64,000 bases of DNA, from the NCBI RefSeq assembly GCF_964204865.1, contig NC_135263.1, positions 11,577,426 through 11,641,425 on the forward strand. The letters run 5' to 3'. Each line of letters opens with the position of its first letter. Positions within the stretch are counted from its first letter, which is position 1. This DNA is from Styela clava (taxonomy: Eukaryota > Chordata > Ascidiacea > Stolidobranchia > Styelidae). The position numbers were made by a program, and so were the translations under genes. Positions 1 to 28,558 of the stretch are shown here, one piece after another. The notes under the pieces are model-generated. The model was not told the origin of the DNA and did not search any database. It saw only the letters and a list, made by a program, of their open reading frames with translations.

Positions 1-607
1 AAAATCACTGTTTTAGAATATATTCAAGATGGTAAATTTTGACCATCCCTGGCTTACATTTACATATATAATATTTAAAAAGTAATCAGCAATTCCATAA
101 ATTAGTTAAAAATTTGGTAAAAAATTTTATCTTGCCCAATTGAAATATTGAACTGCAGAAAGTGTAGGACATATCTTGAAGTTTTTAAAAACGGATGAGA
201 AGGTACAATTACAGCTCAAAATAATTGTTTTTTCTTCAACGGAATAATTGATGATTTTCTGCCCAATTTCCTTCAGTTTTGTAACATAAACTCTCAGGCT
301 ATTTATGTTACCTTAAAATGTATTTGTTCAACCAAAGTATGTGTTAGGTTTTACCTCTGATATCTGTGCTTAATATAAATATTGCACTGTACACCATTGG
401 CAACACTGGGCTAAACAGAGCTGATGGGAATTTGCCTTGTGTTGTCACTCCGTGACGCCTTTTTAACTTTATTTTAATTATCTGATATATTTCAATAACT
501 ATTTGCCTCAAAAACTGAGACATTAATTTGGGGATAGGGCCCAATAATTTACCAATTTGGCAGTTGATAGTTGCTTGTTGTTCTTTCGCAGCACTTCAAG
601 AGATCTC

Positions 608-633
608 GTCACTCCGTGACGTCACGGAGTGAC
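608..633. repeat. 26-base perfect palindrome (GTCACTCCGTGAC plus its reverse complement)
   Basis: The 13-base word GTCACTCCGTGAC is followed at once by its reverse complement, giving a perfect 26-base palindrome. The same double motif recurs at 1786-1811 and 23707-23732, and single halves occur at 444-456, 1998-2010, 2166-2178 and 23919-23931. Such a word is likely the terminal or internal hairpin of a dispersed miniature element, but no element borders could be set. Confidence 0.85.
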
Positions 634-1596
634 ATAAGTATGTCATTTTTGAAAAATATTATTTTTTTGTACGCGAAGTACTATAATATTGGGTTTGAAC
701 TGTTAATTCTTCCACTTTTCCCTCTACTTACTTTGGATCTTACCCACAATGAAACTTGAATGACATGATTGAATGGCAATGGCAACTTTTTTAAAACTAT
801 CGATGACCAAAATATTTGACCTAACATGTGCCGGTTTTGAACAATATGAACGAACTTATTGTAGACTACAATTGAAAAAATAGGTAATCTGTTGGAATGG
901 CAGAATAAATATGGCAAAATGCATCGTTTTGCAATATAATTCGACTATTTTGTAAAAAGCATAAGTGAATTCAAATAATTCACAAACAATATAAATCTCA
1001 AGTTTTAACATCGACATCTGGATTTTCGTTTATATCCATTTATCGGGTATTAACTCATAGGATGCGAAAAATCATGAAATGTGAAAGAAATATGATATGT
1101 TTGTCAAAAATTGAAGATACTTCCAATTAGAAAACGCCAGTACGTCACTCATTGTCACCAATAATTTTTTTTACGTGCCAACTATATCATAAAGCTGGAA
1201 AAAGCAAAAATGATGCAATGACGAGTTTTTGCAGGGACATATTTATCACTGTCTTCTTGTTCTGAATATGCAGACTAAGAGTACTATGTTTGGGGCCCAC
1301 TGCTTCTATGTGTGCTTTGCAAGCAGATGCAAGTACTACCTAACAAGAGAGACTTCAACGCAAAAGAAAATGCTTTTCTATGGTTAATAAATTAGATATC
1401 CAAATAACAAAAATCGTTGCATGGTGCAAAGATTCTTAAACTGAATTGCATTAACGGATCCTCCAGATTCTGTATTTTGAATTGCCCATACTTTATCAAG
1501 TCACTGCAATAAGATTCCAGATATATAGGAGTGGAATAATTATGTTTGTTTCATGTTGTCTGTGCAACATAGCTTTTTACTTACCTATATAGATTA

Positions 1597-2163
1597 TTAA
1601 AGTTAGTGCACTCGTTTAGCATATTAATATGAGGGAGACACAAGCAGAACGACAAAAAAATATAATGTATCCCAATTTTTTGTTTAAATGTTTTGTAATT
1701 TCAAACAAATACCGGTAACCAATTTTGACCTAGTATAACTAATTGTTCAACATTCTTAATACCATTTTAATGATAAGGAATTTTTGTCACTCCGTGACGT
1801 CACGGAGTGACATGTGACTAGTTGGGCCGTATAATTGGGCTGCTTCCTGAAAAATGTTTGGTGTACAATAGATTTTGCATAAATGTAGAGATTAATATCT
1901 CTAGAATACAGAAACAAGTTATTATAATTGATATGTCACGAAGCTTTTGACGAAATTTGGTTGATATATCGCAGTCATTTTATGCATTCAACTTTTTGTC
2001 ACTCCGTGACATCACTTGTTTTGTCTCGTCGTTTGAAAAATATTTGGTTGAAAGTGAAAAGTGAATTATGGTAAATACATCAGTGTTACTGCTACCAATT
2101 GGCCGTACTAAAAATAGCAAACCACCAAGACCTTGATATAGTAAAATTGATTAAATGTGTGAA
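1597..2163 (+). repeat. Dispersed repeat, copy 1 (second copy at 23524-24083)
   Basis: About 565 bases starting TTAAAGTTAGTGCACTCG are repeated in the same orientation at 23524-24083 with few differences. Both copies carry the double palindrome and, about 212 bases further on, a single GTCACTCCGTGAC half. The copies diverge abruptly at both ends, as expected for a mobile repeat. No coding capacity is visible. Confidence 0.85.
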
Positions 2164-3410
2164 ATGTCACTCCGTGACATTTGTGGAATTGCTGTAATGT
2201 ATTTATTCACATATACAGTAACAATATCTGATATGGTCGCACATCCTCCACAGTTGTTATCAAAATTCATCATATTTAAAAATTAAACCCAAAAGTAAAA
2301 TTTGACGTCAACAGCAGTGAGAAGAAAAGCACGAAAAATGGGAAAATTTAGTACAAATATATTTGATATGGGAAAAACATTGAACTATTATACATTATGT
2401 CTGTCTGTATCAATTAAATGAAATTGTTACTGTATCTAGTCATTCTTACATTAGTTTGGTTTACAAAATGTGGAGTGTATTTGCTCACTGGATTTTACAT
2501 GCAGGTGTAAAAATATGTACAGTTTGTTTAGCGTCATTTACTTTTGGAATGTCAATTTATATGCCAAATGCATTGTGTTTTGTTACACCTTTCCTTTTCA
2601 TTATATCGTGGTTTATTGTACAGATGTAGTCAGAAGATCCAAATGTCCATACTGTCGGTATAATTTCAGTGAATATTAACTACATCTACCTGAACTAGGA
2701 ATGCGAACATTCATGAACCAATTTAATTTCCTGAACAGAGCCATCTGTACCTAATTATTGTAATTTTATTACCGGTAAATATATTTTGTTTTTTACAGCT
2801 CACATATTGTTATGTACATATTAAAAAAAAAGATCGACACTATTTAGACTGAGCAGTTTTTCTAGTGAAACTTTTATTCAAAAATAGTTAGGTAAAGATA
2901 AATAGATTATTTTATATTTTCTCAGAAAATTCCTCCTCAGATTTCAAATATTTTAAAAAACCCTCCCAACTTGCATTTGGGCAAAAATTATTTAACCTGA
3001 AACCATGTCATGATATATTTATGTAAGTTGGGATATAACTATAACACATCAGGTTTTAAAAAAAACTTCAAAAGGGTCATCCTAACATCCTTACAGAGTT
3101 CATAATAATTTGAGATAATCATTCACCTTCATGCATTATTGATCATGATTAGGTGTTCTGCAACATTGCTGGGCTTTTCCTAACCATGTAGTTTGATTTT
3201 TATAATATGGTGCCTCACAGCAATGTGAAAATTAGCTATTTATGGTCTTCATTTTAAAATTTGCTTCGAGGGTTTTTTGACAAAATTGTTGGAATTGAGG
3301 GGACTGGTTATCAATACACATCTGGCGTCACTTTGAGAGACAAAGTGAGCAATAACAAATTGGTCGAAAGTCCCCAATCGGCCTGTTTTGATTTTACAAC
3401 CTGTATTATG

Positions 3411-3748
3411 ATCTATGCCAGGGCTACTCAACTGGCGGACTGCGGTCCGAATCCGGACCTTTCGGGTATTCGATTCGGACCGTGCATAATCTTTATTTTG
3501 GATCCTTAGCCTCACTTTTGAAGTTTCCTTTCATAAAATCACTTTCATAGTTTTACAAATATATATGAAAAGAACTATAACGCCATAACAAACAATCTTG
3601 ATTAGCTAATAATCATTAGTCGGCCGAGGAATTGCGTGTTCAAGGATGCCGAAATATAATTTCTGGAAAGTCCGGACCCAAATATTTTCGAAGTTTTGTA
3701 AGCGGACCTTCGGTAAAAATAGTTGAGTAGGCTAGCCCTGATCTATGC
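3411..3748. mobile_element. hAT-type miniature element with 8-base target duplication
   Basis: The element proper is 3419-3740 (322 bases). It begins CAGGGCTACTCAACTGG and ends TAGTTGAGTAGGCTAGCCCTG-like, an imperfect inverted repeat. It is flanked on both sides by ATCTATGC (3411-3418 and 3741-3748), an exact 8-base target-site duplication, which is the hAT signature. It carries no transposase and is non-autonomous. Confidence 0.9.
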
Positions 3749-3972
3749 CATTTACCATACAATCATTAGCGAAATAAGCCTAATAGAATTGCTGAAAACT
3801 TCATTTTCTTTCTATGTGAATTTTTGTCAAAACCGAATATGTGAAAATTGCAAGATTGAGTTGGCTTGGGGATTAGCACCAATAAACCAATTGGAGTCTA
3901 TGAACTATAATCAGGGAGTATTACTCAATGCAGCAACTCAGAATCATCGAAAGAGCGGAATATTATTTCTTT

Positions 3973-4329
3973 ATCTAAACCAGGGTTCTCCAAACCCAAT
4001 GTAATTGTTAATAGGTAGCCTACTCTTCACTGTCTCCAGACATTTATAGATCGCTTGTGTGCACCCAAAATTGCTGTAATAATAAGTCACGTGTACTGCG
4101 AATTAAGTTGTAGTTGAAGCTTCTACTGAGGTGAAAATATGACTTTTTGAAGAGTTTCCAAACCAAGGTTTTCACATTATTATTCTGTATTACAATGTTA
4201 TCAGTATTACAATTTTTTGAGGCAGATTTGAAGGTATGGAAAGATAATTATTAAACTCAATTTAATGCTCCCCCTGAAAAGGCAAAAGTAACCCCTGGAG
4301 ATACCAGATCTGGAACCCCTGATTTAAAC
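3973..4329. mobile_element. hAT-type miniature element
   Basis: The element runs 3981-4321 with ends CAGGGTTCTCC and GGAACCCCTG. The flanks are ATCTAAAC (3973-3980) and ATTTAAAC (4322-4329), an 8-base duplication with one mismatch. It is non-coding and probably older than its neighbour at 3419. Confidence 0.75.
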
Positions 4330-4484
4330 TGAGTTTTGATATGTGAATAAACCCATGTATTGGTATCAGAATGAAACTGAAGAAATGACCATTGCGTTCT
4401 ACTATGCAACAATTGTCAATTAGTCAAAACTTACCAGTAGTCTTAAATCACGTAGCTATAATTATTGACATAACACTTCCTTAC

Positions 4485-6011
4485 CGCTTCTGAATCATCA
4501 ACAAACGGATCATTTTCATCATATCCATATCCTGCACCAACTAAATCCCTGACTTTATCTTTTCTTTTATGTTTATGTCCTGCCGCAGTCGCTCCATATT
4601 TTATTTCAAAATATTTTGCCATTGCTTCGGCTTCATTCCTTTCTTTTTCTTCTTCTTCTTCCAACAGATTCTGGCACATTATATCATTTTCACCCTTCGA
4701 TTTTTTTTCCTACAAAACAAATATCGAAGCTTAGTAAAACTTGTAAAAAAGTTTGCAAATGACTGTTTCAACTGAAATCAATATGTCATACCAAATGAAT
4801 TGTTATTTGAATCAATTTAAAATTTTTTATATATCTGATAATCAATGTTCCCTCTAATTTTTTGTAGTATGTGAGCGCAGAAATTTTGGTGTGTGCGCAC
4901 TTTTTTGGAAATTACTAATATTTGTGCAAAAAACAATGAAGAAATTTTGGCGTTCTAACCAGGTAATAAGTGGGCCAACAACAAACTTTCTCAACCTGCC
5001 AACCGAGAACATTGTTACATTACATCGAAATACGTCTGTGCGCAGTAAATCTATGCGTGTGCGCAGCCTCTGAAAGCTGTGTGCGCGTGCACACGTTAGA
5101 GGGAACACTGCTGATAATCTACATTTTTGATTATACAAATAATTTCGAATAATTTTTTTTTCAAATTCTCATTTTCAGCAATTAAAATTACACAGTATGA
5201 CCAAAAATGGCCTCAGTAATTTCTGAAATTGTGCATTCCCAAACTAACACTGATTGAATTTACGTAGACTTCCATGTGCTTTTTACTAACACAATTTACA
5301 ATATATATCAGACATTTCATAAATGAAAAATATTATTTTAAAAGGTATTAGAAGTAATAAATTATTCTGCTTTGGCCATTTCTGGACCATATTTTATTAA
5401 ACTAGTCTGAAACTTTTCTCTTTGATCCAGTCATATACCAGTAAGTAAATTCCTGAAATTACTAAGATATAGCAAAATATAATTTTTCAGACGATAAATT
5501 GACACGGTTTTATGTTTCAGTGTAAAAAATTTCATTACAAGTTGAAGAATTGAATTAAAAATTGAAATCATTCATAGAAATTGAAAATGCTGTTTCAAAT
5601 TTCAAATTCATTTTTATTTGTGAGAATTCGATCATCAAATTGCATAGGCGATCATATACAAATTTAACATATCATTTTGAACAGAAAGTACGGAATAAAA
5701 TTACAAATAAGCTAACACCAAAATTCCAATTCAACATTCAAATTGAAGAAATCGCACACAATTAATTAGTTTCAAATTTTAGAAATTAACTTTATTAATT
5801 TCGTTCTCAATTTTAGTTACATAAATGCAGAATAATAACGAATAAAAACACAAGGACCCACCTTTAATGTTGTACGCACAAGATCAATGTATGAGTATTC
5901 AGGGCAAGTTGTTCCAGTAGAGTCAGGTAAATCCAGTTCAAATCGTAGCGTCGGCTTTTTCTTCTTCTTATTTTTCTTTTCTCCAGGCAACTTTGCATCT
6001 ATTGAATCCAT
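4485..6011 (-). CDS. UBN: Ubinuclein (UBN1/2, Hpc2-related domain) gene, first two coding exons
   Basis: Two minus-strand exons encode the N-terminal 125 residues. Exon 1 is 6011-5862 (50 codons, phase 0, donor GTGGGT). Exon 2 is 4709-4485 (75 codons, acceptor TTTTGTAG, donor GTAAGG). Exon 1 has a lysine-rich stretch and then a segment with [10 protein letters not shown], as in the conserved ubinuclein N-terminus that contacts HIRA. Exon 2 ends with the Hpc2-related domain core: [24 protein letters not shown]. In known family members this domain serves the HIRA complex, which deposits histone H3.3 in chromatin independently of replication. The start is the ATG at 6011, preceding an open run of 50 codons. 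The remaining exons were not found and probably lie left of the window. The 1.15 kb first intron holds a hAT miniature element. Confidence 0.88.
4835..5118. mobile_element. hAT miniature element in the Ubinuclein first intron
   Basis: The element is 4843-5110 (268 bases), with termini CAATGTTCCCTCTAA and TTAGAGGGAACACTG. It is flanked by the exact 8-base duplication CTGATAAT (4835-4842 and 5111-5118). The interior is rich in alternating GTGCGC runs. A second copy of the same family lies at 56032-56307, also in an intron. Confidence 0.93.
5119..5861 (-). other. Rest of Ubinuclein intron 1
   Basis: AT-rich sequence between the hAT miniature element and coding exon 1. No reading frame, RNA gene or repeat could be supported. 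Confidence 0.6.
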
Positions 6012-9829: not shown

Positions 9830-10172
9830 GCGCGGCGGTGTGGCTCAACTGGCTAAGCGTTAGGAATACGCTCGCCACCGCACCTCTAATTACTCTGCGT
9901 GGGTTCGCAGGTTCAAATCCCATGCAGGGATGATTATGTGCGAGAGGATTGCTGGACTCCTCGCCATCGTTGGGTGGTTCACGTAACCGCTGGTAGGTTA
10001 CGGCTTCCTCCACCACCAAGTCCATGCTTCCAAAAACAAAACCATATACGGTAACTAATCCCATACCCGACTTGGAATGGTAACCGGACGAGAGGCCGTG
10101 GTTCGCCATATGGATAAGCCGTCTTATCGGCTTTTCTCTCCCCCGGGATAAATATGTAAATCCTATCCTATC
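9830..10172 (+). mobile_element. tRNA-derived SINE
   Basis: It begins with a tRNA-like head: RNA polymerase III A box TGGCTCAACTGG near 9841 and B box GGTTCAAATCC at 9910-9920. An unrelated body follows, ending in the tandem tail TCCTATCCTATCC. The same body and tail occur, decayed, near 24470-24650, 29548-29735, 31490-31640 (reversed) and 58740-58830, so this is a family and not a tRNA gene. It lies just upstream of the BTB gene in the opposite orientation. Confidence 0.85.
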
Positions 10173-10552
10173 CAGTCTGCTTCATCCATTAATCTGACCA
10201 ACTTTAATCCTATACAGAATGTTACCTTAATACCGGTACCAGAACTAAATAGAAATTGTAAATTGATGGTTTGATTAACATAATACAGTAATAGATACAG
10301 GAATACAGTAATAGCTAATAGGTCTTGCTTGATCTATCGACAGTTCTGTATTTTCCATACTACCCAAGGTTGAAGGTGCTAAGCGCTTTGTCAGTTTTCC
10401 TAGTATTCTGTTTATTGCTGATTGCTGTACAGTTGTGTGTATTTTATTTGCCTCAAAATGTAGCAGTATCTGCATAATAATTAAACAGTGTAAGAGCCAA
10501 CAGCCAGATAGTAAAAATAATGCAGTACCTACCGGTAGTGAAAATACCGGTA

Positions 10553-10561
10553 CCGGTAGCC
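10553..10561. repeat. Left 9-base target-site duplication of the giant element
   Basis: CCGGTAGCC at 10553-10561 is repeated exactly at 23152-23160, immediately outside both inverted termini. A 9-base duplication is typical of Mutator-like and Drosophila foldback elements. The surrounding target DNA is itself rich in ACCGGTA words, which weakens the inference a little. Confidence 0.8.
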
Positions 10562-10929
10562 ACCTAGGTAAAGCTAGCGGCCACTTCCAGCGGACAGTTA
10601 CCAATTTTTCCAAATTTGAACCCGCCATGTTCCACGACAGTTGTCGCGAATTCACTTAATTGCGCCTACATGGATGCACAAAAATTAGGCGATTCTTCCT
10701 TTTAGAAACTGACGACAGACCTGAAACATAATAAAAAACAAAAATGATTGAAACAACACATTTTTTCCTCGATAAATTATTGCTCAGAAACTCATTTATC
10801 GACAAAATCTAAAATTTAATTGAGTTGCAGCGTGATTTATGCAAGAAATAATTTTTTCTCATCCAATTCATTAATACAGTGAATTTGATGAAGATATATA
10901 AAACATATACTAAATTTTAAAACAATTCC

Positions 10930-13462
10930 ACTATGCGGAAAGTTAGGAAATACCCCCCAATTTAAGGAAAATTTTTAAGAAATTGTCAATATAACTCAGT
11001 TAAAGCGTAATTTATGCAGGAAATAATATTTTCTCATCCAATTCATTAATACAGTGTATTTGGTGGACAAATATAAAAAACATATTGAAATTTAAAAAAA
11101 ATCCACCGTGCGGAAAGTAGAAAAATTCCCCCCAGTTTAAGAAAAAAATATAGAAAATCTCCAATTTAACTCAGTTAAAGCGTAATTTAGGTAAGAAGGA
11201 ATTTTTTCTCATCCAATTCATTATTGCAATGTGTTTGGTGGACAAATATAAAATAGATATCAAAATTTAAAAAAAATCCACCGTGCGGAAAGTAGGGAAA
11301 TTCCCCTCAATTCAATGAAAATATTTGAGAAATCGTCTATCCAACTCAGTTAAAGCATAATTTATGCAAGAAAGAATATTTTCTCATCCAATTCATTGAT
11401 ACAATGTATTTGGTTGACAGATATAAAATACATATTAAAATTTAAAAAAATCCACCGTGCGGAAAGTAGGGAAATTCCCCCCAATTTAATAGAAATATTT
11501 GGGAAATCGTCTATCCAACTCAGTTAAAAAATAATTTATGCAAGAAAGAATATTTTCTCATCCAATTCATTAATGCAGTGTATTTGGTGGACAAATATAA
11601 AATACATATTAAAATTTAAAAAAAATCCACAGTGCGGAAAGTAGGGAAATTCCCCTCAATTGAAGAAAAAAATATAAGAAATCGTCAATTTGACTCAGTT
11701 AAAGCGTAATTCAGGTAAGAAGGAGTTTTTTCTCATCCAATTCATTAATGCAGTGTTTTTTTGGACAAATATAAAATACATATTAAAATTTAAAAAAATT
11801 CCACCGTGCGGAAAGTAGGGAATTCCCCCTCAATTAAAAAATATATATAAGAAATCGTCAATTTGACTCAGTTAAAGCGTAATTTAGGTAAGAAGGATTT
11901 TTTTCTCATCCAATTCATTAATGCAGTGTGTTTGGTGGACAAATATAAAATACATATTTAAAGTTAAAAAAAATCCACCATGCGGAAAGTAGGGAAATTC
12001 GGTACTCTCGAAATATGGACACAAAGATGACGCACAACCTGAATATAAAAGGTGTACCAGGATAGGTTCAGATTTAGAATCTAGATTGTACGCTTTTGGG
12101 AGTGCAGGGAATAAACCCATTTATGCAAAAAATAATTTTTTCTCATCCAATTTATTAATACAGTGTATTTGATGGATATATATAAAATATATATTAAAAT
12201 TTAAAAAAAATCCACCGTGCGGAAAGTAGGGAAATTCCCCCCAATTTGATGAAAATGTTCGAGAAATCGTCTATTTAACTCAGTTAAAGCGTAATTTATC
12301 CAAGAAAGAATATTTTCTCATCCAATTCATTAATACGGTGTATTTGGTGGACAGATATAAAATACATATTAAAATTTAAAAAAAATCCACCGTGCGGAAA
12401 GTAGGGAAATTCCCCCCAATTTAATGGAAATATTTAAGAAATCATCTATCCAACTCAGTTAAAGCATAATTTATGCAAGAAAGAATTTTTTCTCATCCAA
12501 TTCATTAATACGGTGTATTTGGTGGACAAATATAAAATACATATTAAAATTTAAAAAAAATCCACCGTGCGGAAAGTAGGGAAATTCCCCCCAATTTAAT
12601 GGAAATATTTGAGAAATCGTCTATTTAACTCAGTTAAAGCGTAATTTATCCAAGAAAGAATATTTTCTCATCCAATTCATTAATACGGTGTATTTGGTGG
12701 ACAAATATAAAATACATATTAAAATTTAAAAAAAATCCACCGTGCGGAAAGTAGGGAAATTCCCCTCAATTTATTGAAAATATTTAAGAAATCGCCTATC
12801 CAACTCAGTTAAAAAATAATTTATGCCAGAAAGAATATTCTCTCATCCAATTCATTAATAGAGTGTATTTGGTGGACAAATATAAAATACCTATTAAAAT
12901 TTAAAAAAAATTCACTGTGCGGAAAGTAGGGAAATTCCCCTTAATTGAAGAAAAAAATTTAAGAAAATCGTCAATTTGACTCAGTTAAAGCGTAATTTAG
13001 GTAAGAAGGAGTTTTTTCTCATCCAATTCATTAATGCAGTGTTTTTGGTGGACAAATATAAAATACATATTAAAATTTAAAAAAAATCCACCGTGCGGAA
13101 AATAGGGAAATTCCCCCCAATTGAAGAAAAAAATATAAGAAATCGTCAATTTAACTCAATTAAAGCGTAATTTAGGTAAGAAGGAATTTTTTCTCATCTA
13201 ATTCATTAATGCAGTGTGTTTGGTGGACAAATATAAAATACTTATTAAAATTAAAAAAAAATCCACCGTGCGGAAAGTAGGGAATTCCCGCTCAATTAAA
13301 AAATATATATAAGAAATCGTCAATTTGACTCAGTTAAAGCGTAATTTAGGTAAGAAGGATTTTTTTCTCATCCAATTCATTAATGCAGTGTGTTTGGTGG
13401 ACAAATATAAAATACATATTTAAAGTTAAAAAAAATCCACCATGCGGAAAGTAGGGAAATTC
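10930..13462 (+). repeat. Left satellite array, ~175-base monomer, about 15 copies
   Basis: Each monomer contains the recognisable core CCGTGCGGAAAGTAGGGAAA, a CTCATCCAATTCATTAA segment and a GACTCAGTTAAAGCGTAATT segment. Successive cores lie near 10935, 11108, 11283, 11457, 11633, 11807, 11981, 12218, 12391, 12565, 12739, 12917, 13092, 13268 and 13442. The two monomers followed by an extra ~115-base cassette explain the longer steps. Outermost monomers are more diverged (CTATGCGGAAAGTTAGG), as in many subterminal arrays. Confidence 0.95.
12001..12117 (+). promoter_or_regulatory. Promoter-like cassette, left arm copy 1
   Basis: A ~115-base insert between satellite monomers. It contains TATAAAAGG at 12044-12052 and a possible initiator TCAGATT whose A is at 12070, 26 bases from the first T of the TATA box, pointing to the right into the element. 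The cassette ends GCAGGGAATAAA. Confidence 0.65.
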
Positions 13463-13577
13463 GGTACTCTCGAAATATGGACACAAAGATGACGCACAAC
13501 CTGAATATAAAAGGTGTACCAGGATAGGTTCAGATTTAGAATCTAGATTGTACGCTTTTGGGAGCGCAGGGAATAAA
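13463..13577 (+). promoter_or_regulatory. Promoter-like cassette, innermost left copy, ahead of the ULP1-PHD gene
   Basis: Same cassette as at 12001. TATAAAAGG lies at 13506-13514 and the TCAG initiator-like A at 13532. The first ATG of the downstream gene relic is at 13577, about 45 bases from that possible start, directly at the arm/core border. This position is what one expects for the gene's own promoter, with the other copies arising by array expansion. Confidence 0.7.
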
Positions 13578-15554
13578 TGACCGTCTCACTGCTACTGTTC
13601 CCGACAGACAACTCAATAACAATTCTACCTCTACATGATTCCAAATGGGATATAAAAGTATAATTTATTCAATCACAAGCAATTAAATAATTTTTATAAT
13701 TCGTTTGTATTACGTTATGGATAGTTATATTGCTGGTTGTATTTTTCACCAACATACCAGCATGCATCACCATCTAATGACTGATGTAAGTCAATCTTTC
13801 AATCTTTGATGTTTTTAATTTTTCAGGCGGATAGGAAACATCCAATAAATATATCCGAGGCTCGAGAACCCCGGTGTAATTGATATGTATAAGTTGATTT
13901 CATGATTACTTTTGTTACAAAAATATGAAAAAAACAATTTGACGCGAACATCTCGGATTTGAATGTAAAACTGCTGGAATATACTTGCGGAACTATGATC
14001 GAAAACCATTGATATAAACAAAATTAGGGTTGGAAAAATAGACATTGTTTTTTTATCTAAAAATTCCATATTCATCTTTCCTACAACACTTCAATATCAT
14101 ACTTATATCATCTCATTTGTTTTACAGTTAAATTTGGGAAACTATAGCGTGATTGTTTCTGCGTGCAGGATAAATGGAAATCACTGGGTTCTTTTGGTGA
14201 GGATGAAGTTTTGTTTTGAAATTTTAATAATATTCAATAAATAAAAAATTGTTGTGGCAAAATTACATATTGCTTTTTTGTATTTGATTCTTCATTTTGA
14301 TTCGAACAAAATATCTTTGCAATTCATTGACACAACGAGAAATAATTTCTACTTTCTGAATCCGTATGGAAGTTCAATTGAAGAGACCACTCACGCATGT
14401 AAAAATTATAAGTGAGTTCAATTCCTGAAATACATCTTATCGTTAGCCATTTCAACTACAAGCTAAAGTAGAAACTCAATAAACCTTTACTTCACTGTTG
14501 CCAGATCGCTTTCAAATCCTGGAATGGATTTTTTAAAATTATCTTCTTTACAGTTATCCAGTCCTTTATTTTTAATATTCTATTTCTCTTGTTGAAAGTA
14601 TTCGGCTGTTTTCGTGAATATTTTCGTTAAAGTAAAAACATGTCCTGTTCTTACAAATAATATATATCATATGAACTACATAATCACATTGTACCAGTAA
14701 CAAACTGTATTTACAATTTGAATGACATTGACAATTGTGAATGACATTGAAATTGAATGAAAAGTATTGATTTTTAAAAATGAAGTTACATGAAAAGTAT
14801 ATTAGTAAAACTGAATTTACACACGTTACAACACACAGAAACTGGATGAATTTACGAAAAGAATGCGAAAACTGGACACCAACGGTTACTGAACATCCCA
14901 TTCAGAGGGATGGATCCAGTTGTAGAATTTACGTGATAAAGGTATATAGGAAGTCATACAAATTTAATTATCCATACATCAGTATATGTTCTTTGTCAAT
15001 TTATTCACAAGAAATTGTTCCATAAGAATTGATTAATTTATTTTCATATACCAAACAACATTCTCATGATTTTCTTCACACTATTTTGCGTTATTTTGAA
15101 ACTTATTTTGTCTATTGGTTCTTTGGCATATATTCGATTGCAGTTCGCTTGGATGATGCTGGAAACTAAAAGCATCCATGTTGTTTCACCAATCGATGAA
15201 AGGGCGAAAATTGCCAGTTGGGTGATTCAGAATTCCGGTATGACGAAATGAATATTTGATATTTAGATAATTATCTAAACATTACGCAGTTAAAAAATAC
15301 ATTTTTGACAGACTGCGCGGAGACGTACTGCAGTTTTTGTGGTGAGACGGGAGAAGGAGAATGGGTAAGTAACCTAATAGGTGTTCAATAAACATGCAAT
15401 CTATAATTTTATATTCATGTTATTTTTACTTTTTTCAAAGATTGGCTGTGATGTGTGTCCACGCTGGTTTCATGCTGGATGCTACAACGGAGATATTGCG
15501 GAGATATTGGACGTACTTTGGAAATCTCCAGCATGCGAGGCCGGTTGGCATTAA
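13577..15554 (+). pseudogene. Decayed ULP1 (C48-type) cysteine protease fused to a PHD finger
   Basis: Exons that fit by phase: 13577-13657 (MTVSLLLFPTDNSI start), 14128-14196 (NGNHWVLL), 14323-14411 (FIDTT, NFYFLNPYGSS), 14839-14941 (HPIQRDGSSC), 15144-15237, 15312-15364 (CSFCGETGEGEW), 15441-15554 (CDVCPRWFHAGC, stop TAA). ULP1 proteases use His-Asp/Asn-Gln-Cys: His of NHW, Asn of NPYG, Gln of PIQ and the Cys of SSC are all present. ULP1 enzymes cut SUMO or related modifiers; PHD fingers bind histone tails. Signs of decay: the acceptor before 14323 reads AA instead of AG; the usual Gly after the catalytic Cys is Arg; the PHD finger lacks its last CxxC pair; the exon between 13657 and 14128 could not be read cleanly. 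It is transcribed inward from a TATA cassette. Confidence 0.75.
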
Positions 15555-15665
15555 AACGCATTTGATGTAAAAATAAGTTTCAAAGGGTTGCCACTTGACA
15601 CTAACAAGTAGATCAAATGGCCATTTCCCGTTAACCTGTCCATTGAGTACAGAGCCATGAATATA

Positions 15666-16321
15666 CAGTAGAAGCGCTACCCACGAAATTAATTCGTTCC
15701 GAAGACCCGTCGTATTGCATAAGGCGTTTCACCTGTAAATGCCCTAATCCGTTTTAAGTCCACGTAAAACTCGGACATCATTTTCGTATAAATTATATTA
15801 ATGCTTAAAATCCAACAACTACATGTTAGAATTAGATTACAGCATAATAAATAAACAAAGAACATACGGAAAGAAGGAAGAACATAGTAATAACGAATAA
15901 AAACTAAGAACGGTATGCTTATGTACCTTTGTTTACCATCGTCATAATCAAATGATTGATTCCCAAATTACCGTCCGCCACTGATGGAGACTTAAGACCA
16001 GAAAACTTGTTTTATTTTTTAAGTCGGTTTTTACTTGATTTGAGTCGGCGCTAATCTTTCATGTCTGGTGTTATTATTTAAATTTTTTTTATTTTTTTTA
16101 AATCGAAAGTTTGACGGCGCTAGGAAATGTGCGTCATATTCGGTATTCTCAAAAACACCAAAAAACGATATTCGAAGGTCGCAATATTCAAATATTAGGT
16201 TTGTATTGAACATCCCTGCATTAAATTAATCTAAAATGAACAAATATCACTATGCAAGTTTTCGGAAAAGAATTGTTGGATTTTTCGTATCCAGAGCCAT
16301 TCGTACGTAGAGTTTCTACTG
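15666..16321. mobile_element. pogo/Tigger-like MITE nested in the giant element
   Basis: The ends are CAGTAGAAGCGCTACCCACG and, read from the right on the other strand, CAGTAGAAACTCTACGTACG, flanked by TA on both sides (15664-15665 and 16322-16323). Termini beginning CAGTAGAA with a TA duplication fit pogo/Tigger-type Tc1-mariner elements. It is 656 bases and non-coding. It inserted about 110 bases after the stop codon of the ULP1-PHD relic, so it is younger than the host element. Confidence 0.75.
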
Positions 16322-16323
16322 TA

Positions 16324-16970
16324 TACAAGTTTTTCGTGATATTTTTTGCTTCCATTTTTTTGTGATTGGCGAATAAAAAACGATTTGTTGATTGATTCAT
16401 GTGAAAACTTCATTTGGGAATTGAAAGTTTCTTCACACGTTTACAGTGATCGTAGCGGCTACTATCGATCGTATCGTCGTTTCTTCCAACGTCTTAGTAC
16501 GGTGTGCCATACTTCCTTTAGCTCTTTAATACAGTTTCACAGTCTTTCAAATTCTGAGATATTTTTTAACAACAGCATTAAACGGTTCGGCGACATACAT
16601 ATTCGACATAAAAAATGAAGCGCCATAAGTGTCAAATCGTTACTAATCTTGATGACGCCACCTCATCTGTTAAGGTTGAAAATACTATTCTGATTTAGGC
16701 TGCTGATGTACTGAGTTAAGGCTGCACGTTCACCGAAGGTGACCCAAAGATACCAGCATAAGTTACTACTGAGGTTTTACGGAAGGTAGTGCTATATGGA
16801 GTGAGAGGGGGTGTTACGAGGTTGTAGTGTAAACCAATAAAATGAAATGAGAACATGATAAAACTTCAAAAATAATATTTAGTTATGGAGGCGAATGGGA
16901 ATGATCAATAAATATGACAAGATTTCGCTTTAATTTATATAAATTTACGATTCCGTTGATTTTAACATAA
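16324..16970. other. Right part of the giant element's core, no recognised gene
   Basis: A plus-strand frame at 16346-16618 codes 90 residues that I do not recognise. No transposase catalytic motif, domain or convincing splice chain was found on either strand. If the element once had a transposase gene, this is where a remnant would be expected. Confidence 0.5.
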
Positions 16971-18322
16971 GTTAGGGGAATTTCCCAACTTTCCGCACGG
17001 TGGAATATTTTTAAGATTTAATATTCGTTTTATATATCACCATCAAATACACTGTATTAATGAACTGGATGAGAAAATATTCGTTCTTGAATAAATTACG
17101 CTTTAACTGAGTTAAATAGACGATTTCTCAAATATTTTCATCAAATTGGGGGGAATTTCCCTACTTTCCGCACGGTGGATTTTTTTTTCAAATTTTAATA
17201 TGTATTTTATATTCGTCCACCAAATACACTGTATTAATGAATTGGATGAGAAAAAATTCCTTCTTACCTAAATTACGCTTTAACTGAGTCAAATTGACGA
17301 TTTCTTATATATATTTGTTAATTGAGGGGGAATTCCCTACTTTCCGCACTGTGGATTTTTTTAAATTTCATTATGTTTTTTATATTTGTCCACCAAATAC
17401 ACTGTATTAATGAATTGGATGAGAAAATATTCTTTCTTGCATAAATTATTTTTTAACTGAGTTGGATAGACGATTTCTTAAATATTTTCATTAAATTGAG
17501 GGGAATTTCCCTACTTTCTGCACGGTGGATTTTTTTTAACTTTTAATATGTATTTTATATTTGTCCACCAAATACACCGTATTAATGAATTGGATGAGAA
17601 AATATTCTTTCTTGAATAAATTACGCTTTAACTGAGTTAAATAGACGATTTCTCAAATATTTTCATCAAATTGGGGGGAATTTCCCTACTTTCCGCACGG
17701 TGGATTTTTTTTAAATTTCAATATGTATTTTATATTCTTCCACCAAATACACTGTATTAATGAATTGGATGAGAAAATATTCTTTCTTGCATAAATTATT
17801 TTTTACATGAGTTGGATAGACGATTTCTTAAATATTTCCATTAAATTGAGGGGAATTTCCCTACTTTCCGCATGGTGGATTTTTTTAAAATTTTGATATC
17901 TATTTTATATTTGTTCACTAAACACACTGCATAAATGAATTGGATGAGAAAGAATTCCTTCTTACCTAAATTACGCTTTAACTGAGTCAAATTGACAATT
18001 TCTTATATTTTTTTCTTCAATTGAGGGGAATTTCCCTACTTTCCGCACGGTAGATTTTTTTTAAATTTTAATATGTATTTTATATCTGTCCACCAAATAC
18101 ACCATATTAATGAATTGGATGAGAAAATATTCTTTCCTGGATAAATTACGCTTTAACTGAGTTAAATAGACGATTTCTCAAATATTTTCATCAAATTGGG
18201 GGGAATTTCCCTACTTTCCGCACGGTGGATTTTTTTTAAATTTTAATATGTATTTTATATTCGTCCACCAAATACACTGTATTAATAAATTGGATAAGAA
18301 AAAAATATTTTTTGCATAAATG

Positions 18323-18440
18323 GTTATTCCCTGCGCTCCCAAAAGCGTACAATCTAGATTCTAAATCTGAACCTATCCTGGTACCCCTTTTATATTCAGG
18401 TTGTGCGTCATCTTTGTGTCCATATTTCGAGAGTACCGAA
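18323..18440 (-). promoter_or_regulatory. Promoter-like cassette, right arm copy 1
   Basis: Reverse complement of the left-arm cassettes; CCCTTTTATATTCAGG on the plus strand is a TATAAAAGGG box on the minus strand. It points leftward, so inward. It differs from the other two right copies by a few bases. Confidence 0.6.
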
Positions 18441-19258
18441 TTTTCCTACTTTCCGCATGGTGGATTTTTTTTATATTTTAATATGTATTTTATATTTGTC
18501 CATCAAACACACTGCATTAATGAATTGGATGAGAAAAAATTCCTTCTTACCTAAATTACGCTTTAACTGAGTCAAATTGACGATTTCTTATATATATTTT
18601 TTAATTGAGGGGGAATTCCCTACTTTCCGCACGGTGGATTTTTTTTTAACTTTTAATATGTATTTTATATTTGTCCACCAAACACACTGCATTATTGAAT
18701 TGGATGAGAAAAAATTCCTTCTTACCGAAATTACGCTTCAATTGAGTTAAATTGACGATTTCTTATATTTTTTTCTTCAATTGGGGGGAATTTCCCTACT
18801 TTCCGCACAGTGGATTTTTTTTAAATTTTAATATGTATTTTATATTTGTCCACCAAAACACTGCATTAATGAATTGGATGAGAAAAAACTCCTTCTTACC
18901 TAAATTACGCTTTAACTGAGTCAAATTGACAATTTCTTATATTTTTTTCTTCAATTGAGGGGAATTTCCCTACTTTCCGCACGGTAGATTTTTTTTAAAT
19001 TTTAATATGTATTTTATATTTGTCCACCAAATACACCATATTAATGAATTGGATGAGAAAATATTCTTTCCTGGATAAATTACGCTTTAACTGAGTTAAA
19101 TAGACGATTTCTCAAATATTTTCATCAAATTGGGAGGAATTTCCCTACTTTCCGCACGGTGGATTTTTTTTAAATTTTAATATGTATTTTATATTCGTCC
19201 ACCAAATACACTGTATTAATAAATTGGATGAGAAAAAAATATTTTTTGCATAAATGGG

Positions 19259-19373
19259 TTATTCCCTGCGCTCCCAAAAGCGTACAATCTAGATTCTAAA
19301 TCTGAACCTATCCTGGTACCCCTTTTATATTCAGGTTGTGCGTCATCTTTGTGTCCATATTTCGAGAGTACCG
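19259..19373 (-). promoter_or_regulatory. Promoter-like cassette, right arm copy 2
   Basis: Same inward-facing cassette, 935 bases from the copies on both sides, as part of the higher-order repeat. Confidence 0.6.
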
Positions 19374-20193
19374 AATTTCCCTACTTTCCGCATGGTGGAT
19401 TTTTTTTAACTTTTAATATGTATTTTATATTTGTCAATCAAACACACTGCATTAATGAATTGGATGAGAAAAAATTCCTTCTTACCTAAATTACGCTTTA
19501 ACTGAGTCAAATTGACGATTTCTTATATATATTTTTTAATTGAGGGGGAATTCCCTACTTTCCGCACGGTGGATTTTTTTTTAACTTTTAATATGTATTT
19601 TATATTTGTCCACCAAACACACTGCATTATTGAATTGGATGAGAAAAAATTCCTTCTTACCGAAATTACGCTTCAATTGAGTTAAATTGACGATTTCTTA
19701 TATTTTTTTCTTCAATTGGGGGGAATTTCCCTACTTTCCGCACAGTGGATTTTTTTTAAATTTTAATATGTATTTTATATTTGTCCACCAAAACACTGCA
19801 TTAATGAATTGGATGAGAAAAAACTCCTTCTTACCTAAATTACGCTTTAACTGAGTCAAATTGACAATTTCTTATATTTTTTTCTTCAATTGAGGGGAAT
19901 TTCCCTACTTTCCGCACGGTAGATTTTTTTTAAATTTTAATATGTATTTTATATTTGTCCACCAAATACACCATATTAATGAATTGGATGAGAAAATATT
20001 CTTTCCTGGATAAATTACGCTTTAACTGAGTTAAATAGACGATTTCTCAAATATTTTCATCAAATTGGGAGGAATTTCCCTACTTTCCGCACGGTGGATT
20101 TTTTTTAAATTTTAATATGTATTTTATATTCGTCCACCAAATACACTGTATTAATAAATTGGATGAGAAAAAAATATTTTTTGCATAAATGGG

Positions 20194-20308
20194 TTATTCC
20201 CTGCGCTCCCAAAAGCGTACAATCTAGATTCTAAATCTGAACCTATCCTGGTACCCCTTTTATATTCAGGTTGTGCGTCATCTTTGTGTCCATATTTCGA
20301 GAGTACCG
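20194..20308 (-). promoter_or_regulatory. Promoter-like cassette, right arm copy 3
   Basis: Same inward-facing cassette; its sequence and its following monomers are practically identical to copy 2. Confidence 0.6.
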
Positions 20309-23151
20309 AATTTCCCTACTTTCCGCATGGTGGATTTTTTTTAACTTTTAATATGTATTTTATATTTGTCAATCAAACACACTGCATTAATGAATTGGAT
20401 GAGAAAAAATTCCTTCTTACCTAAATTACGCTTTAACTGAGTCAAATTGACGATTTCTTATATATATTTTTTAATTGAGGGGGAATTCCCTACTTTCCGC
20501 ACGGTGGATTTTTTTTTAACTTTTAATATGTATTTTATATTTGTCCACCAAACACACTGCATTATTGAATTGGATGAGAAAAAATTCCTTCTTACCGAAA
20601 TTACGCTTCAATTGAGTTAAATTGACGATTTCTTATATTTTTTTCTTCAATTGGGGGGAATTTCCCTACTTTCCGCACGGTGGATTTTTTTTAAATTTAA
20701 TATGTATTTTATATTTGTCCACCAAAAACACTGCATTATTGAATTGGATGAGAAAAAACTCCTTCTTACCTAAATTACGCTTTAACTGAGTCAAATTGAC
20801 GATTTCTTATATTTTTTTCTTCAATTGAGGGGAATTTCCCTACTTTCCGCACGGTGGATTTTTTTTAAATTTCAATATGTATTTTATATTTGTCCACCAA
20901 ATACACTGTATTAATGAATTGGATGAGAAAATATTCTTTCTTGCATAAATTATTTTTTAACTGAGTTGGATAGACGATTTCTTAAATATTTTCATTAAAT
21001 TGAGGGGAATTTCCCTACTTTCCGCACGGTGGATTTTTTTTAAATTTTATTATGTATTTTATATTTGTCCACCAAATACACCGTATTAATGAATTGGATG
21101 AGAAAATATTATTTCTTGAATAAATTACGCTTTAACTGTGTTAAATAGACGATTTCTCAAATATTTTCATCAAATTGGGGGGAACTTCCCTACTTTCCGC
21201 ACGGTGGATTTTTTTTAAATTTCAATATGTATTTTATATTTGTCCACCAAATACACTGTATTAATGAATTGGATGAGAAAATATTCTTTCTTACATACAT
21301 TATTTTTTAACTGAGTTGGATAGACGATTTCTTAAATATTTTCATTAAATTGAGGGGAATTTCCCTACTTTCCGCACGGTGGATTTTTTTTAAATTTTGA
21401 TATCTATTTTATATTTCTCCACCAAACACTTTGCATTAATGAATTGGATGAGAAAAAATTCCTTCTTACCTAAATTACGCTTTAACTGAGTTAAATTGGA
21501 GATTTCCTATATTTTTTTCTTAAACTGGGGGGAATTTCCCTACTTTCCGCACGGTGGATTTTTTTTAAATTTTGATATCTATTTTATATTTGTCCACCAA
21601 ACACACTGCATTAATGAATTGGATGAGAAAAAATGCCTTCTTACCTAAATTACGCTTTAACTGAGTCAAATTGACAATTTCTTATAATTTTTTCTTCAAT
21701 TGAGGGGAATTTCCCTACTTTCCGCACGGTGGATTTTTTTTAAATTTTAATATGTATTTCATATTCGTCCACCAAATACACCGTATTAATGAATTGGATG
21801 AGAAAATATTCTTTCTTGGATAAATTACGCTTTAACTGAGTTGAATAGACGATTTTTCAAATATTTTCATCAAATTGGGGGGAATTTCCCTACTTTCCGC
21901 ATGGTGGATTTTTTTTAAATTTTAATATGTTCTTTATATTCGTCCACCAAATACACTGTATTGATGAATTGGATGAGAAACTATTCTTTCCTGCATAAAT
22001 TATTTTTTAACTGAGTTGGATAGACGATTTCTTGAATATTTCCATTAAATTGGGGGGAATTTCCCTACTTTCCGCATGGTGGATTTTTTTTAAATTTTAA
22101 TATGTATTTTATATCGGTCCACCAAATACATTGTATTAATGAATTGGATGAGAAAATATTCTTTCTTGCATAAATTATGCTTTAACTGAGTTGGATAGAC
22201 GATTTCTTAAACATTTCCATTAAATTGGGGGGAATTTCCCTACTTTCCGCACGGTGGATTTTTTTTAAATTTTAATATGTATTTTATATCTGTCCACCAA
22301 ATACATTGTATTAATGAATTGGATGAGAAAATATTCTTTCTTGCATAAATTATGCTTTAACTGAGTTGGATAAACGATTTCTTAAATATTTTCATTAAAT
22401 TGGGGGGAATTTCCCTACTTTCCGCACGGTGGATTTTTTTAAAATTTTGATATCTATTTTATATTTGTCCACCAAACACTTTGCATTAATGAATTGGATG
22501 AGAAAAAATTCCTTCTTACCTAAATTACGGTTTAACTGAGTTAAATTGGAGATTTCCTATATTTTTTTCTTAAACTTGGGGGAATTTTTCTACTTTCCGC
22601 ACGGTGGATTTTTTTTAAACTTTGATATGTATTTTATATTTGTCCACCAAATACACTGTATTAATGAATTGGATGAGAAAATATTATTTCCTGCATAAAT
22701 TACGCTTTAACTGAGTTATATTGACAATTTCTTAAAAATTTTCCTTTGATTGGGGGGTATTTCCCAACTTTCCGCATAGTGGAATTGTTTTAAAATGTAA
22801 TATATGTTTTATATATCTTCATCAAATTCACTGTATTAATGAATTGGATGAGAAAAAATTATTTCTTGCATAAATCACGCTGCAACTCAGTTAAATTTTA
22901 GATTTTGTCGATAAATGAGTTTCTGAGCAATAATTCATTTTATCGAGGAAAAATGTGTTGTTTCAATCATTTTTGTTTTTTATTATGTTTCAGGTCTGTC
23001 GTCAGTTCTAAAAGGGAGAATCGCCTAATTTTTGTGCATCCATGTAGGCGCAATTAAGTGAATTCGCGACAACTGTCGTGGAACATGGCGGGTTCAAATT
23101 TGGAAAAATTGGTAACTGTCCGCTGTAAGTGGCCGCTAGCTTTACCTAGGT

Positions 23152-23160
23152 CCGGTAGCC
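23152..23160. repeat. Right 9-base target-site duplication of the giant element
   Basis: CCGGTAGCC, identical to 10553-10561, immediately outside the right inverted terminus. Confidence 0.8.
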
Positions 23161-26374: not shown

Positions 26375-28558
26375 TGCACGATCAGGGGCGGACTAAGCCC
26401 CTTTGGTGCCCTAAGCACTGGAGGCTTTGGTGCCCCCATATGTGTCTTTTAAAATACATATAATTAAGTGTATTATCCATCAAAAATACTCACAACCAAC
26501 AGTAAAAAAATACAACTTCTACGAAAATTTTTAGATTTTCTTACAATTTTTTGACTGTGAAATTTTGCTCATATTCCCAAAACTAATCTTATTACATAAT
26601 ACATCTTTTACATTAAATAATGAACAACACAAAATTTTGAAAAGATGAAATTGAAATAAAACAATACCAACAGTAAGGAAGCAAACGATGTTTTTCGGTA
26701 CATTTACTTGAATTTGATTCTGATAAATTTTCTCATATTATCAAAACAAGTCTCTCTCCATACTAGATACTACGCCACTGACATTACAAAGGCACCACTA
26801 ACATTTGAAAAGACAGAAGTCTTTCACTTACTTTTGAAAAGTTTTTTCCTAATTTTTTTAGCTGCAAAGTCTTTGATTAGATCCTCAAAACTAAGCTTAT
26901 GTAACACATCTGCCTCTATACTCAACAGAGATAAAGCATCTAGTATTCTAGTCTGTCTTGTTTCATAGTTGTTCTGTAGGGGTTTTTAATATACTTCAGC
27001 TGAGAAAATGAACGTTCTGCTGGACAATTTGTGATCATTAATGTTGAAAATATTTGAAAGCTATTGTCTACATTTGGAAAGGCGCACTCAATGTTATATT
27101 CTACAAGAATTTTGTAAAGTTCAGCATGACTGAATCTTGATTTTTTTTTCCCTGTGTCATTGAATTTATGGAGCACATATAAATGAAACTGCTGAAGCTC
27201 AGCTGAGAAATTACTGTTGAAATCTTCTGGGTAAGCATCAATAAGCTTTTGACAACCCTGCGAATACCTTTCCTTCTCAGCAGATGAAGAGACATTTGAT
27301 TACAGTGGTAGCGTGAGCGCTTCATAGCGTTCAAATTCATCTCGTGGAATGCGCAGCTGGCCTCGTAATGATGCATACAGATGCGCGCATGTTTGTAAGT
27401 CTACATTCTCACTTTGCAGAACTTGACTTACTTCGTGAAAATTCTGTAAAATTTCATTCCAAAACAATAACATAAAACGAATTCCAGCTCCTGCATTTTA
27501 TCTGCAATATAAGTAGTCTAGCTGCCTAGGTTTGCATCAACTGGCTTAGCAGAATATGATTTTCATATATTCTGGGAATTGTCGCGATTAAGACTCACGC
27601 GTCAAGTCTCAACGTGAATCGAAATACCAGATGAACCGAGTACAAACTGCAGTTTAAAATTTTACCATTACTTATTAGTCTAGTCTACCTTACCAGAAAA
27701 CTCCCCAACTTCGCTGACCACTAGATCGCTGAAATGCGATCGCGGAACCGCCACATAGTGCGCCATTCCAAATTTTGATGTTGTCGCTACACCAAACTTT
27801 CGACAAGTAAGTTTCAGTGTTCATCACTAATGTACCTTCCCCGAGCATCAACCTCCTTGTTGACTTCGAGTAATTGGCCAATCAGCAAGATGCTAAAAAG
27901 TAACGTAACAATGCACCCTTTTCGCATCCGCTCAGACACTTTTCTCACTCAGACAGATTTTCAGGCATGGTTGTAAACATTACCTCGTTTTCGCGTTTTT
28001 TTATCTCCATTCGTTAGTTTTCAGTTGTGTTTGAGTATAAATCAGATAATTAAATGATCACCATGTCTTTTTATAAGTTTTAATTCAATTGCAGTAAATG
28101 AAAAATTGGTGTAAAAATAGCTGTGTTAGACTAGGCTAAAATTCCTTACCGGTATTTATATAAAGGTGATTATTGTACGCCATGAAACATGATAGTCTCA
28201 ACAAATATCCCATTTTACAGGGGCCAACTCGCGAAATCACTCTTAAAATAAGCCCCGAGAATTTTGCAATTGTAAAGTATAGGAAGAATTTTTCGGGGGT
28301 CAAAGGTCGGGGAAAGGTCCATTGATGTACACGATTTTTTAAAGGTAGTTCGCAAACCTCCAACCATTGATCGAGAAGCTTAATATGATGCTTGAGGAAA
28401 AGAAAATACGAACAAGTCTGAGTTGTCTGTTCAACTCGTAATATTTTATTAAACACCGATGAACTATTGAAATAAAAATTTCTGTGGTGCCCCCCTTTGC
28501 TTGGTGCCCTAAGCACGTGCTTATATTGTTTACTGGTTAATCCGCCCCTGTGCACGAT
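26375..28558 (-). mobile_element. hAT transposon with degraded transposase
   Basis: The element is 26383-28550 (2168 bases). Ends are CAGGGGCGGACTAA and TTAATCCGCCCCTG, and the flanks are the exact 8-base duplication TGCACGAT (26375-26382 and 28551-28558). The left end of the element holds the 3' part of a minus-strand hAT transposase. Most of the transposase N-terminus is missing, so it is an internally deleted copy. A related relic lies at 46585-47972. Confidence 0.95.
26850..27380 (-). pseudogene. hAT transposase C-terminal region (dimerisation domain), frameshifted
   Basis: Minus-strand frames show CAFPNVDNSFQIFSTLMI, then NCPAERSFSQLKYIKNPYRT and, in another frame, LLSIEADVLHKLSFEDLIKD. 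The motif with ER-FS-L-K--K--R is the conserved hAT C-terminal dimerisation region found in ZMYM1-like and similar transposase-derived proteins. At least two frameshifts and stops separate the pieces, so no functional protein can be made. Confidence 0.85.

Follow-up and report, generated by a model that had tools for sequence, protein, structure and literature searches.

Structure of the Element

The window, by which we mean the whole 64,000-nucleotide stretch of Styela clava DNA analysed here, contains an element of 12,590 bp at positions 10562-23151, with both ends located. It starts at 10562 with ACCTAGGTAAAGCTAGCGGCCACTT, and the reverse complement of this sequence closes it at 23151. An exact 9-mer, CCGGTAGCC, lies on either side as a target-site duplication without strand (left, 10553-10561; right, 23152-23160). 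The expected chance of an exact 9-mer beside fixed ends is about 1e-5 given this base composition, although the true chance is somewhat greater because CCGGTA motifs abound in the local flank. The initial annotation had reported near-identical inverted ends and an exact 9-base direct repeat at these places, and both are there; its interval, 10553-23160, takes in the two duplications along with the element proper.

The left arm, on the plus strand, begins with the outer, non-repetitive part of the terminal inverted repeat (252 bp, 10562-10813), inward of which lies an array of a 175-bp monomer: an outer block of 6.8 units (10814-12000), a 118-bp copy of a spacer that we call S (12001-12118), an inner block of 7.7 units (12119-13462), and a second, 115-bp copy of S bordering the interior (13463-13577). 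The interior occupies 13578-16967 (plus strand). The right arm is oppositely oriented, on the minus strand, and consists of an innermost block of 7.7 units (16968-18323), a copy of S (18324-18437), two higher-order units of 935 bp, each made of 4.7 monomers plus S (18438-19372 and 19373-20307) and identical to one another at 931 of 935 positions, an outer block of 14.8 units (20308-22896), and the non-repetitive outer part of the right terminal inverted repeat (255 bp, 22897-23151). Spacer S, about 117 bp long, thus recurs twice in the left arm and three times in the right. Landmarks of the 175-bp repeat number exactly 15 on the left and 33 on the right, as the approximate counts of the initial annotation had it. 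An alignment of the two arms, begun at the ends and carried inward, gives 93% identity over 1,451 aligned bp, with 98% identity in the outermost 420 bp. Spacer S, the 935-bp units, and the Peptidase_C48 and PHD exon pieces described below are additions to what was first annotated.

A Family of Mobile Copies

Searching the genome with the first 24 bp of the element, allowing up to 3 mismatches, gave 58 matches (a reversed control gave 0), which were paired into 25 two-ended elements, leaving 7 single ends and one further end inside a copy. The S. clava genome therefore holds at least 25 two-ended copies, 4.5-18 kb in size, with ends beginning ACCTAGGTAAAGCTAGC. Target duplications are exact in 23 of the 25 pairs, with 18 of 9 bp and 5 of 8 bp; one of the other two has a base missing on one side, and one has no duplication. 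In all 17 copies examined from end to end the arrays are opposed, and the common plan is an end of about 256 bp, a 175-bp array, an interior or none, an opposed array, and an end. Departures from this plan are extra stretches inside C14a, C2b and C6b and the extra internal end in C1a. We considered the possibility that the 18-kb copy is a longer, perhaps autonomous form, but it carries a LINE-like insertion nested within it, in which endonuclease and reverse transcriptase domains were recognized.

We also looked for unoccupied targets, using 15 joined flanks against part of the genome. One was found: adjoining copy C16a is a tandem duplicate of its target that carries the target sequence once and no element, with 98.7% identity over 307 bp. 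No empty site for the window copy was seen among the 40 matches listed (40 of 290 candidates scored), and the only long matches among them were to its own two flanks. Inspection by eye of 20-30 bp at each end of the 25 copies revealed no sharing of flanks beyond the inverted ends, a result that would have told against the initial annotation had it turned out otherwise.

Insertions of the family are spread over many unrelated sites, each as a rule with 9 (sometimes 8) bp of target duplicated. It combines inverted arms of tandem repeats, variable arm length, and mobility with target duplication, which are the structural marks of foldback elements, and the window element is a mobile foldback transposon. 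The family to which it belongs is new and of a known kind, and the form it takes is unusually big. The initial proposal of a foldback-type element with changing arrays is thus borne out by the 25 paired copies, their 23 exact 8-9-bp duplications, differences in arm length among 14 copies, and the one unoccupied target. It might be argued that the structure is no transposon at all but a chromosomal satellite duplicated in inverted orientation, or else an error of assembly, as opposed arrays are difficult to assemble and the flank of the window copy is itself repetitive, with its CCGGTA motifs. Against this stand 25 copies with the same ends, differing flanks and their own duplications, and the unoccupied target beside C16a; the non-transposon reading is already contradicted for the family as a whole, and we give it almost no credence.

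Evolution of the Arrays

Arms carry from 7 to 33 landmarks, and left and right counts are equal in only 2 of the 14 copies measured. For core monomers, the closest relative is found in the same arm in 98 of 420 cases, compared with 17 expected, and in the other arm of the same copy in 22 of 420, compared with 16 expected. The closest monomer pairs point to growth of the arrays mainly by block duplication inside one arm, and array length may shift through unequal exchange or replication slippage there. Conversion between arms as the main homogenizer is unsupported, both by the other-arm neighbours, which are near expectation, and by the ends, which are barely closer within one copy (97.7% identical) than between different copies (96.9%). 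Neither the monomer as a derivative of the outer end nor spacer S as a derivative of the monomer found support, as similarity did not rise above that of shuffled sequences (58 of 200 and 77 of 200 shuffles, respectively, score as high).

Exact monomer landmarks number 371 genome-wide, 216 of them in the 17 retrieved copies. The initial annotation had suggested that such an element could seed satellite DNA; of the 371 landmarks, the 100 whose places were listed are all inside elements, with no free satellite seen among them. One may speculate, with much more doubt than confidence, that this is a satellite of nucleosome length, with higher-order repeats, that evolved wholly inside a mobile element and is kept by it. 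As parts of the same tentative reading, selection for a working end, which might consist of phased nucleosomes or of repeated transposase-binding sites, would lie behind the strictness of the 175-bp period and the conservation of the outermost units, and array length would set the rate at which each copy moves. If this were true, the family would amount to a moving laboratory, one that copies itself, in which satellites evolve within a chordate. With about two dozen independent copies whose monomers can be counted, satellite expansion and homogenization become directly testable away from centromeres, and the element brings into a chordate genome long inverted arrays from which hairpins and inversions could arise.

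The Interior and Its Ulp1-PHD Gene Pieces

Aligned blocks of the interior of the window copy share 93.7-100% identity with 9 further long copies, and this interior lacks two stretches that most of the 9 have. Peptidase_C48 and PHD domains were recognized in this interior once exon pieces were joined. The pieces, all on the plus strand, are three from an Ulp1-like (Peptidase_C48) relic (a, 14131-14199; b, 14314-14409; c, 14831-14941), one between Ulp1 and PHD (d, 15144-15236), and the two parts of the PHD finger, the second with a stop (e, 15314-15364; f, 15444-15554). Across 11 copies (10 for piece d) we counted 10 silent, 32 replacement and 3 stop changes; two of the stops are in copy C5a and the third is near the edge of a piece. 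The silent changes compare with 11.7 expected without selection (p = 0.73), and by these counts the Ulp1-PHD piece, carried inside the large copies, looks to be evolving neutrally.

A transposase domain was not recognized at an E value of 0.1 in 29 interior frames scanned singly, taken from the window copy (10 of its 15 frames of at least 60 aa), C8a, C9a, C14a, C2a, C1a and C6b. The same scan also missed the window copy's Ulp1 and PHD pieces that match when joined, so an exon-split transposase could likewise escape it. A methyltransferase-like frame spotted by eye in C1a had no Pfam match at 0.01, and a fish Ulp1-PHD protein used as query found nothing in the genome.

That the element is autonomous, with the Ulp1-PHD gene encoding a working protein or with an exon-split transposase hidden from scans that have little power for such genes here, would fit the exon pieces keeping frame in most of the 11 copies and the prediction of part of the gene as S. 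clava protein LOC120338846. The protein pieces, however, bear no sign of selection and are at least as variable as the non-coding interior (8.5% of sites compared with 5.9%), and at least one copy without an interior, as well as others with short or different interiors, still has exact duplications. We regard autonomy as very improbable. The family is probably non-autonomous, and the Ulp1-PHD piece would be a decayed remnant or captured cargo rather than a working enzyme.

Candidate Mobilizers

The 9-bp majority (18 of 25 duplications, with 5 of 25 at 8 bp) fits the duplication length of MULE/Mutator elements. MULE duplications span 8-11 bp, while duplications of 8-9 bp occur outside MULEs too, in superfamilies such as Zisupton, hAT, P and Merlin. 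In the table of one survey (PMC6446971), 9-bp duplications are frequent. A genome search for the MULE domain gave 82 matches over the cut-off, some of which may be host genes, since the one at locus L057 resembles a ZSWIM-type gene; by eye, no match of the 82 comes closer than about 17 kb to any end of the family. Among these and the 38 matches for Peptidase_C48, a search that is weak here because the family's own exon-split pieces went unreported, inspection by eye found no autonomous partner inside an element with family ends. The sequence was examined at six of the 82 MULE loci. Two MULE frames, 940 and 992 aa long and one of them carrying an OTU domain, showed no link to the family ends.

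The MULE at L055/L056 follows the same plan as the foldback family. Its opposed arms are built of tandem repeats that differ in number (about 27 and 32 units), and of the two copies examined one has a target duplication of 9 bp and the other of 8 bp. Unlike the family, it has a 454-aa frame with FLYWCH and MULE domains, a repeat of 16 bp, a length of 4.07 kb, and unrelated ends (GGTGACAGCAC and GGTTCCATTATC), and its element part gave no match to the foldback family. The S. clava genome has at least one seemingly intact MULE family, although one survey reports limited evidence for MULEs among chordates (PMC6446971).

The MULE type proposed in the initial annotation agrees with the duplication length, the pairing of Ulp1 with PHD, and the presence of a MULE of the same plan in the genome; no transposase domain was recognized in the element. 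Neither a DDE transposase in the interior frames scanned nor, among the MULE matches compared, ends in common with a transposase-bearing element was found, and we favour the view that the element works like a MULE-moved foldback, without assigning it to MULE/Mutator. The most likely candidate for the mover is a Mutator-type (MULE) transposase. Such an enzyme, encoded elsewhere, would bind the family ends, and the bound element would move by cut and paste.

The same foldback element might instead be moved by a Rehavkus-type or other superfamily making 8-9-bp duplications, rather than by a canonical MULE. Rehavkus is described as making 9-bp duplications and as having both a PHD finger and, near its 3' end, a minisatellite (PMC6446971), and the family interior likewise has a PHD finger and the arms are tandem arrays. 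The Rehavkus minisatellite, however, sits before the 3' end, whereas here arrays fill both arms and no transposase was recognized, and the records given in that survey are from Arthropoda and Annelida only. PHD is paired here with Ulp1, a pair described in Ginger1 and Mutator transposases (PMC2836005). We find this alternative unlikely, and consider it probable that the window element belongs to a foldback DNA transposon family that is itself probably non-autonomous and is moved by a MULE.

Comparison with Known Foldback Elements

By description, Drosophila FB4 shares the foldback plan with repeat-rich inverted arms, in copies of 627-2,266 bp (PMC2955051). Sea urchin foldbacks such as TU have inverted repeat-rich arms too; PMC4079207 mentions the sea urchin elements by name. 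The Meloidogyne Mutator/Foldback element Tm1 is likewise described with composite inverted ends, variable tandem-repeat number and mostly 9-bp duplications, and is tied to a Phantom-like (MULE) transposase, although its repeats are 13-15 bp and its elements 1,080 and 2,593 bp (PMC3169594), compared with 175 bp and 4.5-18 kb here.

Tetris, a foldback of Drosophila virilis, has a unique outer domain, a variable-copy repeat array and a variable middle, as here, with 8-9-bp duplications in complete copies, and is also apparently non-autonomous (PMC4079207). In the account given there, its outer end and repeat have a 37-bp stretch in common and the repeat has spread to free satellite, in contrast to the Styela end and monomer, which lack similarity, and to the Styela monomer landmarks listed, all of them inside elements. 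The Tetris repeats are AT-rich and about 220 bp long, compared with our 175-bp monomer, and its arms reach up to 1,735 bp (PMC4079207), whereas those of the Styela family reach up to 6.2 kb, or 7.6 kb in C14a with its inserted stretch.

Layout of the element

The element occupies 10562-23151 of the window (12,590 bp) and is flanked by exact 9-bp copies of CCGGTAGCC. Inward from each end there is a unique part of 252-255 bp followed by an array whose AT-rich monomer is 175 bp long, and the 3.4-kb interior sits between the two arrays. The initial annotation had described opposed arrays of about 15 and 33 monomers, and a short diagnostic landmark pattern used to count monomers returned the same picture: the left array has 15 landmarks and the right one 33, and the two face each other. 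A spacer of ~117 bp, S, breaks up the left array at two points and the right one at three, and the right arm contains two adjacent 935-bp blocks identical at 931 of 935 positions. Because the blocks between spacers stop at the same monomer fraction (in most arms of 14 copies), S probably had a single origin and then spread with block duplications. At E 1e-3, the rest of the window gave no match to monomer, spacer or end sequence. The arrays are described as they stand in the 376.6-Mb genome assembly, where the window is G000:C18:11577426-11641425.

Several features lie around the element. A dispersed repeat in the left flank (window 9962-10173) overlaps an open frame and recurs with 95% identity at 5855-6065 of L051, one of the fetched genomic stretches. 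In a minus-strand frame at window 26940-27299, the stretch NCPAERSFSQLKYIKNPYR was judged by eye to resemble a hAT-dimerisation domain, and the species-named matches of a flanking BTB protein are to the ascidians Phallusia, Ciona and Clavelina.

Copies across the genome

The first 24 bp of the element, with up to 3 mismatches allowed, matched 58 places in the genome, and the reversed control matched none. Pairing ends by position and orientation, with pairing and distances checked by eye from printed lists, gave 25 elements with both ends, 4.5-18.0 kb in length, and left seven ends single and one as an additional internal end; the counts are lower bounds, as copies with diverged ends escape the search. 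All 25 junction pairs were read, giving exact 9-bp target duplications in 18 and exact 8-bp duplications in five; of the other two copies, C14a has a base missing from its duplication, and C3a, with a damaged left end, has none. Shared flanks beyond the ends would have spoken against transposition in the initial annotation, and the 20-30 bp adjoining the ends are unlike between copies (25 copies, by eye); farther out, some copies have other dispersed repeats in common.

We read 14 copies at full length, the window copy included, and later three more, and all 17 have opposed monomer arrays. Additional stretches lie inside an array, end or interior in C14a, C2b and C6b, and C16a is without any interior, its two arrays adjoining directly. 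C16a occupies one unit of a local duplication, and the neighbouring unit (L009 6410-6716) is empty, has the target once and is 98.7% identical over 307 bp; it shows the site in its state prior to insertion, and was the sole such case when 15 joined flanks were searched against the stretches fetched up to that comparison.

Two end subfamilies can be told apart, GGCCACT and GGACACT. GGCC copies that were read at full length and possess a long interior (ten, plus C2b) have an Ulp1-PHD interior in common, whereas the GGAC copies C2a and C10a share a different interior of 1.5 kb. C1a (L053 1232-6506) has yet another interior, of 5.3 kb, with an extra left end behind it and a methyltransferase-like frame without Pfam support. 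In C2b (L029 4180-8298 and beyond) a nested LINE-like insertion has raised the length to 18 kb; one frame there carries endonuclease and reverse transcriptase domains.

Change within the arrays

Landmark spacing is regular: of 482 intervals measured over 28 arms, 330 equal 175 exactly and 412 fall within 174-176. An arm has between 7 and 33 landmarks, and the left and right counts agree in 2 of 14 copies, on a count that may overlook diverged units. We aligned 475 units, leaving out seven with lengths outside 160-245. The outermost three are kept by position across arms (identities of 96%, 95% and 91%), with later positions at 86-88%. Excluding the first two units as queries, and searching all 475 with the expectation taken among 420, the closest relative lay in the same arm for 98 of 420 units (17 expected), in the other arm for 22 (16 expected) and in another element for 300 (387 expected). 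The excess within arms supports change by block duplication within an arm, and leaves conversion between the two arms a weak role at most. Average identities are nearly alike (87.0% within an arm, 87.1% to the other arm, 86.9% to another element), thus the duplication signal is confined to the closest pairs.

The initial annotation had suggested that such an element could seed satellite DNA. Genome-wide there are 371 exact occurrences of a 25-base landmark pattern (reversed control 0), 216 of them within the 17 fetched copies; among the matches listed, 100 of 371 (contigs C1 to part of C6), all lie by eye within elements, an element being defined here by at least one family end. A monomer search, with 37 of 94 candidates scored, likewise placed all the matches listed within elements. 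Among these matches no free array was seen, although unassembled satellite would escape.

Interior gene pieces and a model for the mobiliser

When joined, the interior exon pieces match Peptidase_C48 at E 2e-4, and their PHD part by itself matches PHD at E 4e-8. The joined pieces are 97% identical to a database protein labelled Styela clava LOC120338846 over 56% of the query; together with the BTB matches, this points to an ascidian host, most likely Styela clava. Changes counted in 11 copies (10 copies in the case of one piece) give no sign that the Ulp1-PHD protein is being kept by selection: with 10 silent changes, 32 replacements and 3 stops, they are near the neutral expectation (p = 0.73, in a test of low power against weak selection). 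Two of the three stops fall in one copy and the third near a piece edge, and variable sites make up 8.5% of the Ulp1-PHD pieces versus 5.9% of the non-coding interior. No transposase domain was found at E 0.1 in 29 single frames from seven copies; the scan likewise missed the window copy's own Ulp1 and PHD pieces, and would therefore also overlook an exon-split transposase. The family is probably non-autonomous.

Ginger elements make target duplications shorter than 9 bp. Ulp1 and PHD domains are described together in Ginger1 and Mutator transposases (PMC2836005), and of these two Mutator would better suit the 9-bp duplications. Genome-wide, 82 MULE-domain matches exceeded the cut-off, and six loci were read. 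Two of them, L055 (reverse, 1279-5345) and L056 (1112-5178), hold 4.07-kb MULEs that are 99.7% identical over 4,067 bp, with a 454-aa frame carrying FLYWCH and MULE domains (domain search on L056). In L055 the two arms are opposed arrays of a 16-bp repeat, with some 27 units in one and 32 in the other, and the target duplications of the pair are attctaaaa (9 bp) and ctgacttt (8 bp). At least one MULE family of this genome thus has a foldback plan, together with target duplications of the same two lengths, 9 and 8 bp. The ends of this MULE differ from those of the foldback family, so it is a model for the mobiliser and not the mobiliser itself identified.

On one side of the MULE-like L058 (about 197-3816) lies an array of 9.7 units of a 67-bp repeat; the other side has only a short inverted stretch that matches it, and inspection by eye showed no target duplication. 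No long inverted arms were found within the fetched stretches of L051, L052 and L057, and L057 fits a ZSWIM-type domain better than MULE. The 940-aa frame of L051 (1015-3834) has a MULE domain just below the cut-off, and the 992-aa frame of L052 (130-3105) has one above it plus an OTU protease domain; judged by eye, both start with a PHD-like stretch rich in cysteine.

Comparison with known systems

Among the matches listed in a literature search on foldback, satellite and Mutator-like elements, none was found naming Styela clava or an ascidian, subscription papers and Repbase being outside its scope. We class the element as an apparently new family within a structural kind that is already known. 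Foldback ends are tied to a MULE-type transposase in Tm1 (PMC3169594), and 9-bp duplications are linked with PHD and minisatellites in Rehavkus (PMC6446971). The closest described plan is that of Tetris in D. virilis (PMC4079207), although the arms of the present family are several times longer.
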